A DNA stretch of 64,000 bases from Embleya hyalina (GTDB lineage Bacteria; Actinomycetota; Actinomycetes; Streptomycetales; Streptomycetaceae). The position numbers were made by a program, and so were the translations under genes. The stretch spans positions 376,888 through 440,887 of the forward strand of contig NZ_BIFH01000015.1 of NCBI RefSeq assembly GCF_003967355.1, given 5' to 3'. The notes under the pieces were generated by a model, which saw only the letters and a list, made by a program, of their open reading frames with translations, was not told the DNA's origin and made no database searches. This document shows, piece by piece, positions 5,449 through 36,465 of the stretch. Every line of letters begins with the position of its first letter. Position 1 is the stretch's first letter.

Positions 5449-6129
5449 TCAGGGCTCGAACTTGTACCCGAGACCGCGCACGGTGACCAGGTAACGCGGG
5501 GCACCCGGGTCCGGCTCGATCTTGGCCCGCAGTCGCTTCACGTGCACGTCCAGCGTCTTGGTGTCGCCCACGTAGCCGACACCCCAGACCCGGTCGATCA
5601 ACTGCATCCGGGTGAGCACCCGGCCCGCGTTGCGCAGCAGCACCTCGAGCAGGTCGAACTCCTTGAGCGGGAGATCGATCCGCCGACCCTCCACGGTGAC
5701 CCGGTGCGCCTCGACGTCGAGCCGGACCGGACCCGCCTCGATCGCGCGCGGCTCGTCCGTCTCCACCCCGCCCTGGCGGCGCAGCACGGCACGGATCCGG
5801 GCGATCAGCTCGCGAGTCGAGTACGGCTTGGTGACGTAGTCGTCGGCGCCGATCTCCAGGCCGACCACCTTGTCGACCTCGCTGTCCTTGGCGGTCACCA
5901 TGATGACCGGCACATTGGACTTGGCCCGCAGCCCGCGGAAGACCTCCGTGCCCGGCAGACCGGGCAGCATCAGGTCGAGCAGGACCAGATCGGCGCCGCC
6001 CTGGTCGAACAGCTCCAACGCCTCGGGGCCGGTGGCGGCGACCGCCACCTCGAAGCCTTCCTTGCGAAGCATGTACGACAGCGCGTCGCTGAAGGACTCT
6101 TCATCTTCGACGACGAGCACACGGGTCAT
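5449..6129 (-). CDS. phoP: Response regulator PhoP of the phosphate-starvation system
   Basis: This is a 226-residue OmpR/PhoB-class regulator. The receiver domain covers about residues 1-115 with acidic pocket Glu8/Asp9, phosphoacceptor Asp52 (LLDLMLPG), Thr79 and Lys101 (VTKPY). The winged-helix DNA-binding domain covers about 130-226 and ends in VTVRGLGYKFEP. In Streptomyces, PhoP activates pst, phoU, ppk and alkaline phosphatases and represses antibiotic genes. The start overlaps the phoR stop by 4 nt (ATGA), so the two are translationally coupled. Assignment to PhoP rather than another OmpR-type regulator rests on close similarity, the phoR partner and the carD-phoP-phoR neighbourhood. 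Confidence 0.93.
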   Translation of the reverse strand: MTRVLVVEDEESFSDALSYMLRKEGFEVAVAATGPEALELFDQGGADLVLLDLMLPGLPGTEVFRGLRAKSNVPVIMVTAKDSEVDKVVGLEIGADDYVTKPYSTRELIARIRAVLRRQGGVETDEPRAIEAGPVRLDVEAHRVTVEGRRIDLPLKEFDLLEVLLRNAGRVLTRMQLIDRVWGVGYVGDTKTLDVHVKRLRAKIEPDPGAPRYLVTVRGLGYKFEP

Positions 6130-7316
6130 CGTGATGCCTCCATGGATGGGGTCGACGATGTCATCGACATCGATTGAGAGGTACTGGACTTGAAGGGCAG
6201 CACAAGGGTGAAGGTGGATCCCACACCCTCCAGGCTGCGCACGGTTACCTCTCCCCCGTGGCCCGCCGCGATGTGCTTGACGATGGACAGGCCCAAGCCG
6301 GTACCGCCGGTGGCCCGCGAACGGGCCGGATCGACACGGTAGAACCGCTCGAAGATGCGATCCAGGTCACGCTGGGGAATCCCCAGGCCCTGGTCGGAAA
6401 CGGTGATGACGGCCATCCGTGCCTCTGCTCTGACCTCGATGTCGACCCTCGTCCGCGCAGGACTGTAGTTGACCGCGTTCTCGACCAGATTGCCCAGAGC
6501 CATCACCAGTTGATTGTGGTCCCCCGGCACGATCAACTCACGATCGCCCCCGATCGCGAGGGTGATCTGCTTCGACTCCGCCGCCTGCCGGCAGCGGTCG
6601 GCGGCCTCGGCCACCAGGTCGTCGAGCGGGACCGGGCCCACGTGGTGCAGCGGATGGTCGTTCTGCACCCGGGACAGGTCGATCAGCTCCTGGACCAGAT
6701 TGGTCAGCCGGGCCGACTCGATCTGCATCCGGCCCGCGAAGCGGATGATCGCCTCGGGGTCGTCGCTGGCGTCCATGACCGCCTCGGCCAGCAGCGAGAG
6801 CGCGCCGACCGGGGTCTTGAGCTCGTGGCTCACGTTGGCCACGAAGTCGCGGCGCACCGCGTCCACCCGGCGCGCCTCGGTACGGTCCTCGACCAGCAGC
6901 AGCACCAGCCGGGAGCCCAGCGGCGCCACCCGCGCGGACACCTCGAACTCGTGCGCCTCGCCGTCGGCCCGGGCGAGCAGCAGGTCGCGCTGCCTTATCT
7001 CGCCGTCGCGCCTGGTCTCCTTGGCCATCGCCAGCAGGTCCTCGGGCACCAGTTGATCCCCGCGGACCAGGCCGAACTTGTAGGCCGCGGAGGACGCCTT
7101 GACGACGGTGTCGAACTCGTCGAGGACCACGGCGGAGGAACGCAGCACGGACAGCACTGTGGCCACTCCGGGCGGCAGGGAAGGGGCCGCGGCGGGCGCC
7201 GCGGCCGCACCTCTGCCCTGGGCCCGCTCACTCCAGCGGAAGGCCAGGGTGCCGGCCACACCGACGGCCAATCCGGATACGGCGGCCAAAGCGGCGGCGG
7301 CAACGTTCACGTCCAC
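6126..7316 (-). CDS. phoR: Phosphate-sensing histidine kinase PhoR
   Basis: The 396-residue kinase has one N-terminal membrane helix (about residues 5-27) and an Ala/Pro linker. A PAS-like domain (about 50-145) follows, then HisKA with the phosphorylated His164 in VANVSHELKTP. The ATPase domain shows the N box NLVENAVNYS, G1 DQGLGIP and G2 GTGLGLSIVKH. The first frame codon is GTG at 7316 with a weak upstream ribosome binding site. It is the first gene of the phoR-phoP operon, and PHO-box-like repeats lie upstream at 7378-7399, consistent with autoregulation. The divergent neighbour is not phoU but a metallothionein-like gene. Confidence 0.92.
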   Translation of the reverse strand: MDVNVAAAALAAVSGLAVGVAGTLAFRWSERAQGRGAAAAPAAAPSLPPGVATVLSVLRSSAVVLDEFDTVVKASSAAYKFGLVRGDQLVPEDLLAMAKETRRDGEIRQRDLLLARADGEAHEFEVSARVAPLGSRLVLLLVEDRTEARRVDAVRRDFVANVSHELKTPVGALSLLAEAVMDASDDPEAIIRFAGRMQIESARLTNLVQELIDLSRVQNDHPLHHVGPVPLDDLVAEAADRCRQAAESKQITLAIGGDRELIVPGDHNQLVMALGNLVENAVNYSPARTRVDIEVRAEARMAVITVSDQGLGIPQRDLDRIFERFYRVDPARSRATGGTGLGLSIVKHIAAGHGGEVTVRSLEGVGSTFTLVLPFKSSTSQSMSMTSSTPSMEASR

Positions 7317-7377
7317 ATGTTCCAGGGTAGAGCTGACCCGAACGGGTGAAACCGTCCAGAGGGTCCGTCGTGCAGAT

Positions 7378-7399
7378 CTTCATGTGTCGTTCATCCGTG
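7378..7399 (+). promoter_or_regulatory. PHO-box-like direct repeat between phoR and the metallothionein-like gene
   Basis: CTTCATGTGTC (7378-7388) and GTTCATCCGTG (7389-7399) are two adjacent 11-nt units sharing TTCAT in the same phase. This is the layout of Streptomyces PhoP direct-repeat units. The second unit fits the published core closely and the first loosely. The site lies between divergent genes and could serve phoRP, the small gene at 7437, or both. Confidence 0.6.
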
Positions 7400-7436
7400 C
7401 GCCACGCCTGTCACCGGTGATCGTTCGGAGGTCGTC

Positions 7437-7562
7437 ATGTCCGACCCGCAGACCCCGCCCCAGCCGAGGGCTCCCGTGCCGGGCTGCAACTGCCCGTCCA
7501 GTTGTGGTTGTGGCTGTAAGTCCGGTTCCGCGTGCAATTGCGGCGGCAGTTGCGGCCGCTGA
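7437..7562 (+). CDS. Metallothionein-like 41-residue cysteine-rich protein
   Basis: The predicted protein is 41 residues with eight cysteines (17, 19, 23, 25, 27, 33, 35, 39), no aromatic residues and no Leu or Ile. A Pro-rich 16-residue lead is followed by GCNCPSSCGCGCKSGSACNC and a short SCGR tail. The CxC and CxxxC spacing is typical of metallothioneins, which bind Zn(II), Cu(I) or Cd(II) in thiolate clusters. GGAGG lies 6 nt before the ATG at 7437, and a hairpin terminator follows the stop. It is divergent to phoR, in the position where Streptomyces usually carry phoU. It is shorter than MymT of mycobacteria and I cannot assign it to a known subfamily. Expression is inferred, not shown. 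Confidence 0.8.
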   Translation: MSDPQTPPQPRAPVPGCNCPSSCGCGCKSGSACNCGGSCGR

Positions 7563-7594
7563 AACCGGCGCACGGGTCGACGAGCCCGGCCCGT

Positions 7595-7635
7595 GCGGAG
7601 CGCCCGGCCCCTTCCGTGACAGTCGGGCGCTCCGC
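7595..7635. terminator. Bidirectional terminator between the metallothionein-like gene and gpmA
   Basis: GCGGAGCGCCCG (7595-7606) pairs perfectly with 7624-7635 across a 17-nt loop. It lies between converging genes. Confidence 0.8.
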
Positions 7636-7670
7636 GCGGAGCCGATCGGACCTTCACCCGATGTTCGTGA

Positions 7671-8429
7671 TCACTTCCGCCCCTGGTTCTTGACCGCTTC
7701 GATCGCGGCCGCCGCGGCCTCGGGGTCGAGGTAGCGGCCACCCGGGGTGACGGGGCGCAGATCCGCGTCCAGTTCGTACAGCAGCGGGATGCCGGTGGGG
7801 ATGTTCAGGCCGGCGATGTCCGCGTCCGAGACGCCGTCCAGGTGCTTGACCAGCGCGCGCAGCGAGTTGCCGTGCGCGGCCACCAGGACCGTGTCGCCGC
7901 CGAGCAGGTCCGGCACGATCGCGTCGTACCAGTAGGGGAGCATGCGCTCCACGACGTCCTTGAGGCACTCGGTGCGCGGACGGATCTCCACCGGCAACGA
8001 CGCGTAGCGCCGGTCGGCGAACTGCGAGTACTCGTCGTCGTCGGCCAGCGGCGGCGGCGGGGTGTCGTAGGAGCGGCGCCAGAGCATGAACTGCTCCTCG
8101 CCGAACTCCTCCAGGGTCTGCTTCTTGTCCTTGCCCTGGAGCGCGCCGTAGTGCCGCTCGTTGAGCCGCCAGGAACGCCGCACGGGCAGCCAGTTCAGGT
8201 CGGCCACGTCCAGCGCGAGCTGGGCGGTGCGGATCGCGCGGCGCTGGAGCGAGGTGTGCAGGACGTCGGGCAGCACCCCCGCGTCGAGCAGCAACTGCCC
8301 GCCGCGCGCGGCCTCCTTCTCCCCCTTGTCGGTCAGGTCGACGTCGACCCAGCCGGTGAAGAGTCCGGCTTCGTTCCACTTGCTTTCGCCGTGCCGCAGA
8401 AGGATCAGTTTGTAGAGAGCGTCAGCCAT
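7671..8429 (-). CDS. gpmA: 2,3-bisphosphoglycerate-dependent phosphoglycerate mutase
   Basis: This glycolytic enzyme interconverts 3- and 2-phosphoglycerate through a phosphohistidine intermediate. The N-terminal [13 protein letters not shown] carries the RHG motif with catalytic His13. [25 protein letters not shown] and [17 protein letters not shown] contain the other conserved dPGM residues, and [13 protein letters not shown] is near the C-terminus. The length of 252 residues is usual. The ATG at 8429 gives [14 protein letters not shown]; longer frames have no family match. It stands alone, converging with the metallothionein-like gene across a terminator and followed upstream by the ybjN-mshA pair. 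Confidence 0.95.
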
Positions 8430-31264: not shown

Positions 31265-32206
31265 ATGGACCTCGCGGATGTGTCGATCGAGACGGTGAAT
31301 CGGGCCTCGGCGGATGACGCCGCCGCCGTACTGGCCCTTGCGGAGGCGGCGGCCGGCGTCGACGGCGCGGCGCCGCTGTCCGAGCAGTCCCGGCTGGAGC
31401 TGCGCCACGGCGCGCCCTCGGCCCGCGAACTGCTGGCCCGCGACGCCTCGGGGATCGTCGGCTTCGCGCATCTCGACGGCGCGGACCCGGTGGACGGACC
31501 CGCCGCCGAACTGTTCGTGGTGCCGGCCGCGCGCGGCGCGGGCCTGGGGCGGGCGCTGCTCGAAGCCGTGCTCGCCGAGGCCGCGCGGGTCGACGAGCGG
31601 GGCCGGCTGCGGGTGTGGGCGCACGGCAAGCTGCCGGCGGCCGGGCGGCTGGCCGAGGCGCTGGACTTCACCGCGTTCCGCGAGTTGTGGCAGATGCGCC
31701 GGGTGGCCGACACCCCGGTGCCCGAGGTCGCCACGCCCGCCGACGTCCGGCTGCGCACCTTCCGCCCGGGCGTGGACGACCGGGCCTGGCTCGCGCTGAA
31801 CGCGAAGGCGTTCGCCCACCACCCGGAGCAGGGCGCGTGGACCGCCGAGGACCTGACCCGGCGGTTCGCCGAGCCGTGGTTCGACCCGGCCGGCTTCTTC
31901 CTCGCCGAGGACGCGGGCACCGGCGAGCCGCTCGGGTTCCACTGGACCAAGACGCACCCCGCGACGGCGGACTCGGGCCCGCTGGGCGAGGTGTACGTGG
32001 TCGGCGTCGACCCGGCCGCGCAGGGTCGCGGCCTGGGCGCGCTGCTGACCGCGGTGGGCCTGCGACACCTGGCCGAGCGCACCGTCGACGGTGTGCCGCT
32101 CGCCGAAATATTGCTCTATGTGGACGCGGACAACGAGCCGGCGGTCAAGGTCTATACCCGTTTGGGCTTTCGTGTGCATACAGTCGATGTGATGTACCGA
32201 CGTTGA
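31265..32206 (+). CDS. mshD: Mycothiol synthase MshD (last step of mycothiol synthesis)
   Basis: MshD acetylates Cys-GlcN-Ins with acetyl-CoA to give mycothiol. The 313-residue protein has two tandem GNAT domains: a degenerate N-terminal one (ELFVVPAARGAGLGRALLEA) and the active C-terminal one with the CoA-binding loop GVDPAAQGRGLGALLTAVGL and NEPAVKVYTRLGF. This length and tandem layout are diagnostic. The ATG at 31265 is preceded by TACCGT and 7 nt, compatible with leaderless translation; a GTG three codons earlier is possible. mshA is in the same window. Confidence 0.92.
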   Translation: MDLADVSIETVNRASADDAAAVLALAEAAAGVDGAAPLSEQSRLELRHGAPSARELLARDASGIVGFAHLDGADPVDGPAAELFVVPAARGAGLGRALLEAVLAEAARVDERGRLRVWAHGKLPAAGRLAEALDFTAFRELWQMRRVADTPVPEVATPADVRLRTFRPGVDDRAWLALNAKAFAHHPEQGAWTAEDLTRRFAEPWFDPAGFFLAEDAGTGEPLGFHWTKTHPATADSGPLGEVYVVGVDPAAQGRGLGALLTAVGLRHLAERTVDGVPLAEILLYVDADNEPAVKVYTRLGFRVHTVDVMYRR

Positions 32207-32230
32207 ACACCGTGTGAAACCTGGCGAACA
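32202..32230 (-). promoter_or_regulatory. Candidate PHO-box-like repeats upstream of ppk
   Basis: GAA-centred units (GTTGAAC, GTGAAAC, GCGAAC) begin at 32205, 32216 and 32226, spaced 11 and 10 nt. Read on the minus strand they give GTTCGCC, TTTCACA and GTTCAAC, resembling PhoP repeat units in reverse orientation. The match is imperfect, but ppk is a known PhoP target in Streptomyces. Confidence 0.35.
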
Positions 32231-36252: not shown

Positions 36253-36421
36253 GCGCTTGGTCAAGCCGTGATCACGGTTTACCGAACGTCACTCGGCGTC
36301 CATCTGAACGCGGGATGAACGTCGTTCAGGCGTCACCACAAAGCCCCAGTTCGCGGGTAGTAAATGGCTACATGAACGGACAATTCATCCAGCGGTCGGC
36401 TTATCTGACTCGACCGTTCGA

Positions 36422-36465
36422 GTTCACCCTCGGTTCACTTTCCGCGGCGGATCGCTTCATTCACA
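36422..36465 (+). promoter_or_regulatory. PHO box of the pst operon (three in-phase units)
   Basis: GTTCACCCTCG (36422-36432) and GTTCACTTTCC (36433-36443) are adjacent 11-nt repeats. After one non-matching 11-nt unit, CTTCATTCACA (36455-36465) continues in the same phase. This is the classic Streptomyces PhoP-binding layout and lies 77-120 nt before the pstS start. Confidence 0.9.

Follow-up and report, generated by a model that had tools for sequence, protein, structure and literature searches.

Comparison of the phoR-phoP region of Embleya hyalina with the same region in related genomes points to a new variant of a known locus, in which phoU is absent and a PHO box has been captured by mtpA; the mtpA gene itself is already known. 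The region lies within a stretch of 64,000 nucleotides from contig NZ_BIFH01000015.1, referred to here as the window. It was singled out by an original prediction, made from sequence, of a metallothionein-like microprotein in the phoU position next to a PHO-box-like repeat. The observation has been confirmed and its interpretation is partly supported.

The predicted open reading frame, divergent to phoR and with 41 residues, eight cysteines and a good ribosome-binding site, is present on the forward strand at 7437-7562. It starts with ATG and encodes MSDPQTPPQPRAPVPGCNCPSSCGCGCKSGSACNCGGSCGR (41 aa), in which the eight cysteines are spaced C-x-C-x3-C-x-C-x-C-x5-C-x-C-x3-C. A GGAGG ribosome-binding site can be read directly at 7427-7431, 5 nt 5' of the ATG. 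Divergent from it, on the reverse strand, are phoR (6126-7316) and the response regulator gene phoP (5449-6129), which overlaps the end of phoR. The sensor kinase PhoR has HisKA and HATPase_c domains, its gene is syntenic with Streptomyces phoR, and the NCBIfam PhoR model is among its two best matches, with a score under the model cut-off. The conserved right flank is the convergent phosphoglycerate mutase gene gpm (7674-8429, reverse strand), assigned by synteny and by a match to NF010718 over the cut-off. The order in the other Streptomycetaceae genera examined is phoP-phoR / phoU-mtpA / gpm, with gpm sometimes more distant. In such loci mtpA is flanked by phoR or phoU on one side and by gpm on the other and runs opposite to phoR, and this is where the ORF is found here.

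Between the convergent mtpA and gpm is a hairpin at 7587-7644 with a fold z-score of -4.3. A terminator had been predicted after the ORF; no U-tract terminator was found after mtpA in the window, and the strong hairpin is a probable bidirectional terminator without a U-tract. A similar stem-loop, identical in its loop sequence, occupies the corresponding site of loci L036 to L039 from Embleya and Yinghuangia. The loop contains CCTTCCGTGAC (window 7609-7621), which is also present at L036:6481, L037:2346, L038:6662 and L039:6578, with the loci turned to the window orientation. Stem-loops at other places in Streptomyces loci have it as well (L041, L055, L058 and L066 are examples), and this recurrence suggests a preferred terminator loop.

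Sequence and position identify the ORF as MtpA, an unremarkable orthologue of the mtpA product known from Streptomyces and not a new gene. With a profile built from 20 relatives, matches were found in 194 of 200 Streptomycetaceae genomes; the match in this genome has E = 2e-11, and mtpA is present in a single copy. The core C-x-C-x3-C-x-C-G-C-x2-G-x2-C-x-C-G-G, whose columns are invariant or nearly so in the 20-sequence alignment, is found here in full. The invariant alignment columns are Cys 17, 19, 23, 25, 27, 33 and 35 and Gly 26, 30, 36 and 37. Both the cysteine pattern and synteny with phoR, which had been proposed as the check on the prediction, are conserved across relatives. The implication that the gene had not been described did not hold. 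Synteny, the profile matches and the published mtpA (SCO4227) of the Streptomyces literature rule out novelty of the gene.

Within the 24-codon Cys core, pairs of Embleya species have 6 to 10 synonymous codon differences and 0 nonsynonymous differences, and between Embleya and Yinghuangia there are 8 to 11 synonymous and 2 to 4 nonsynonymous differences. This is the substitution pattern of a protein under selection. The ORF is short, of low complexity and without a match to any family model, as would be expected of a chance GGC/TGC-rich frame with no protein function. That explanation is ruled out, with a negligible probability left to it, because core changes among Embleya are exclusively synonymous and the core is conserved in nearly all genomes of the family. 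Beyond the Streptomycetaceae, 10 genomes from a single further actinomycete family (L148-L157) also carry small MtpA-like ORFs with the same Cys core, with a start codon approximately 12 residues ahead of the core. No phoR was recognised beside them in three 2-kb stretches for which the neighbouring ORFs were listed.

MtpA has no Pfam match at E<=10, PF02069 (SmtA-type metallothionein) included, and searches of NCBIfam models and solved structures gave no match. Its Cys content and spacing support the metallothionein-like assignment made in the prediction. MtpA is best explained as a small metallothionein-like thiol protein of the cytosol; during adaptation to phosphate starvation it probably chelates soft metals (Zn, Cu, Ni or Cd), scavenges oxidants, or does both.

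The founding paper on mtpA (SCO4227) of S. coelicolor and S. lividans is said to be Ghorbel et al. 2006. SCO4227 of S. coelicolor, next to phoU, has been named as the metallothionein mtpA and grouped with the phosphate-starvation genes (PMC2267785). Published reports conflict on PhoP control of Streptomyces mtpA: its rise under phosphate limitation has been described as not depending on PhoP (PMC3282765), and SCO4226 and SCO4227 have been reported to be under PhoRP regulation (PMC4991794). In strain WAC07094, mtpA is beside phoU and is transcribed both from its own promoter and by read-through out of phoU; it responds to magnesium but showed no response to zinc or manganese, and is dispensable for control of saquayamycin production (PMC11019849). 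The link between phosphate and metal handling that the prediction put forward is therefore on record for Streptomyces mtpA (PMC2267785, PMC3282765, PMC4991794, PMC7866108, PMC11019849), and is not new.

In E. hyalina there is no phoU immediately upstream of mtpA and no PhoU in the genome. None of the four Embleya and three Yinghuangia genomes has PhoU (PF01895), as against 192 of the 193 other members of the family sampled; the sole exception is a genome that is 71% complete. The independent model TIGR02135 also found nothing at E<=1 in the seven genomes, and its controls were found. The set includes two near-complete assemblies, a single-contig Yinghuangia and an 8-contig Embleya. Relocation of phoU, or its concealment in an assembly gap, was considered and is rejected on the negative results of two independent models in genomes that include these assemblies.

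The phoR-mtpA-gpm order is shared by Embleya scabrispora DSM 41855 (L036), Streptomyces sp. SID3343 (L037), which groups with Embleya, Yinghuangia seranimata (L038) and Y. soli (L039). In each of the 76 remaining named loci, phoU adjoins phoR. Genomes from two further families of the order retain phoU next to phoR, and gpm usually follows; the absence of phoU is therefore a derived loss, and it would most simply be explained by one event. The placing of the ORF in the phoU position is right in that mtpA now lies where phoU is normally found. There has been no replacement: mtpA is the normal downstream neighbour and phoU was deleted. The missing phoU concerns the locus and leaves the classification of the protein as MtpA unaffected.

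PhoU normally acts as the negative modulator of the Pho response, and its loss in E. coli leads to a constitutive response. The rest of the phosphate system, PhoR, PhoP, PstSCAB, Ppk and PitH, is kept, with PstB and PhoU_div present in all genomes tested. Between 32 and 42 kb the window contains ppk, genes for a CHAD protein and a Nudix protein, pstSCAB and pitH, with pstC and pstA assigned by position and sequence only. According to work cited in PMC4415409, constitutive induction was reportedly not seen in phoU or pst mutants of several Streptomyces. Embleya would appear to tolerate the loss of PhoU, and this non-constitutive behaviour may be the reason.

It is possible to see MtpA as a thiol buffer or a small regulatory partner of PhoR-PhoP that partly replaces the lost PhoU, rather than chiefly as a metal store. 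Its proximity to phoU and phoR is conserved, all seven phoU-less genomes retain mtpA, and a review has proposed a part for PhoU and MtpA in the sensing of oxidative stress (PMC7866108). However, MtpA and PhoU co-occur across almost the whole family, the cysteine pattern of the core is unchanged in Embleya and Yinghuangia, and PhoR has not accelerated in the clade, with distances to outgroups of 0.376 and 0.361 (Embleya and Yinghuangia) against 0.367 for relatives. Such a role is very improbable. The outgroup distances likewise give no support to a PhoR altered to compensate for the loss; a faster PAS region seemed to be present in the within-family comparison, and support for it was gone once outgroups were used. 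For Gpm, the distance to the outgroups is no larger in Embleya and Yinghuangia than it is in relatives. PhoP evolves modestly faster in these two genera, at 0.197 and 0.172 against 0.147, the maximum of the others being 0.164.

The two in-phase TTCAT units predicted upstream of the ORF are present at 7379 and 7390, 11 nt apart. They belong to a PHO-box-like pair of 11-nt direct repeat units at 7377-7398 on the forward strand, of the GTTCACC type and divergent in sequence (TCTTCATGTGT CGTTCATCCGT). The 22-nt box ends 38 nt 5' of the mtpA ATG. Both strands of the window, approximately 128,000 positions, were scored with a matrix of two units that had been trained on the phoR-phoU boxes of 76 Streptomycetaceae loci; the box ranks fifth, with a score of 3.5. 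The best site of the window, which serves as the positive control for the matrix, is the pstS box at 36421-36442 on the forward strand (score 30.3). Four of the other six top-scoring sites, including this one, are 5' of pstS or ppk. Three of the high-scoring sites are 5' of pstS (36300-36442) and one is 5' of ppk (32199-32220). The predicted repeat is thus real by sequence.

The box is in the place of the Streptomyces phoR-phoU box. TTCA-N18-TTCA is found between phoR and phoU in 76 of 76 phoU-bearing loci, and in all seven phoU-less genomes the box is 61-62 nt from phoR. Simulated sequences of like composition equal the score of the box at the phoU-less loci in 2 to 11 of 1000 cases per genome. 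On these grounds 7377-7398 is identified as the ancestral phoR-phoU PHO box, brought directly 5' of mtpA by the deletion. The gap between box and mtpA ATG is 38 nt in Embleya (46 in G003) and 156-177 nt in Yinghuangia.

A second site usually precedes mtpA. The element CCGTTGA(T/C)G is found 5' of the gene in 40 of 41 phoU-bearing Streptomycetaceae loci and is absent from the 120-nt phoR-mtpA intergenic region of Embleya, which is a property of the locus and not of the MtpA protein. CCGTTGA is the core of a longer, strongly conserved element, TGCGCCGTTGATGCGCC, seen for example in L045, L061 and L081, which contains an 11-nt repeat of TGCGCC, is often followed by GGGCAT-CAATGG and looks like a promoter or operator of mtpA. 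With CCGTTGA(T/C)G gone, no recognisable regulatory site lies nearer to Embleya mtpA than the ancestral phoR-phoU box, and PhoP is probably the main control of the gene.

The PHO box at 7377-7398 may instead serve phoRP alone, through autoregulation, with Embleya mtpA on an unrelated weak or constitutive promoter and the adjacency an accident of the deletion. No recognisable -10 or sigma-70 promoter was found between the box and the mtpA ATG in the window, the phosphate response of Streptomyces mtpA has been reported as PhoP-independent (PMC3282765), and in Yinghuangia, where the box is at its greater distance, an additional conserved GTTGAC block remains 5' of mtpA. Set against this are the short distance from box to ATG in Embleya, repeat units that point to mtpA, and the missing upstream element of Streptomyces mtpA. 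Autoregulation of phoRP alone is therefore an unlikely account of the box.

The favoured reading, which we consider quite likely, combines MtpA as a chelator or antioxidant with an ancestral phoU deletion and direct PhoP activation at low phosphate from the left-over PHO box. Against it count the score of the box, which is lower than that of the pstS box, the missing -10 element, the lack of a family-model or structure match for MtpA, the report of a PhoP-independent phosphate response and the response of mtpA to magnesium but not zinc or manganese in one strain. The deletion from between phoR and mtpA would have taken place in the ancestor shared by Embleya and Yinghuangia. At low phosphate, PhoR would phosphorylate PhoP, and phosphorylated PhoP would bind the retained box, most likely activating mtpA directly, so that mtpA rises with phoRP. 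In Embleya, where the mtpA promoter element was also lost, the PHO box would act as the main control. MtpA would then bind soft metal ions or act as a thiol buffer as the cell uses up phosphate-rich ligands and produces metal-dependent phosphatases. The analysis shows orthology, synteny, the absence of phoU and a conserved PHO-box-like sequence; PhoP binding, phosphate induction, metal binding by MtpA and tolerance of the loss of PhoU are inferred. Release of metal from polyphosphate, as a context for MtpA, is speculation.

A stronger statement is that Embleya and Yinghuangia have a complete PhoR-PhoP-Pst response without PhoU, in which the PhoP-driven promoter of PhoU has passed to a metallothionein as a direct PhoP output. 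This is held tentatively, as a possibility somewhat short of probable. If true, metal (or thiol) buffering sits exactly at the former site of the PhoU feedback loop. A clade that lacks PhoU but has kept PhoR, PhoP and Pst offers a natural experiment in streptomycete phosphate sensing, and is of interest since phosphate sensing controls antibiotic production in streptomycetes. The phoU-less locus also provides a clean promoter-change test of PhoP-dependent phosphate control of mtpA, which is disputed in the Streptomyces papers.

Like mtpA of S. coelicolor and S. lividans, the Embleya gene adjoins the phoR-phoP side, is ahead of gpm and encodes a small Cys-rich protein of metallothionein type. 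It differs in having no phoU between phoR and mtpA, and in the replacement of the usual upstream element by the PHO box from the phoR side. Embleya MtpA also has less sequence N-terminal to the Cys core than most relatives do. SmtA/BmtA (PF02069) and mycobacterial MymT, the latter likened by description, are likewise small, Cys-rich, soluble and presumed to be chelators, although MtpA is set apart from SmtA/BmtA by the lack of a PF02069 match. Bacillus subtilis also has a PhoR-PhoP phosphate response without a phoU gene (PMC4415409). In Bacillus, however, the signal for PhoR is considered to be a teichoic acid biosynthesis intermediate, whereas Embleya has lost PhoU secondarily.
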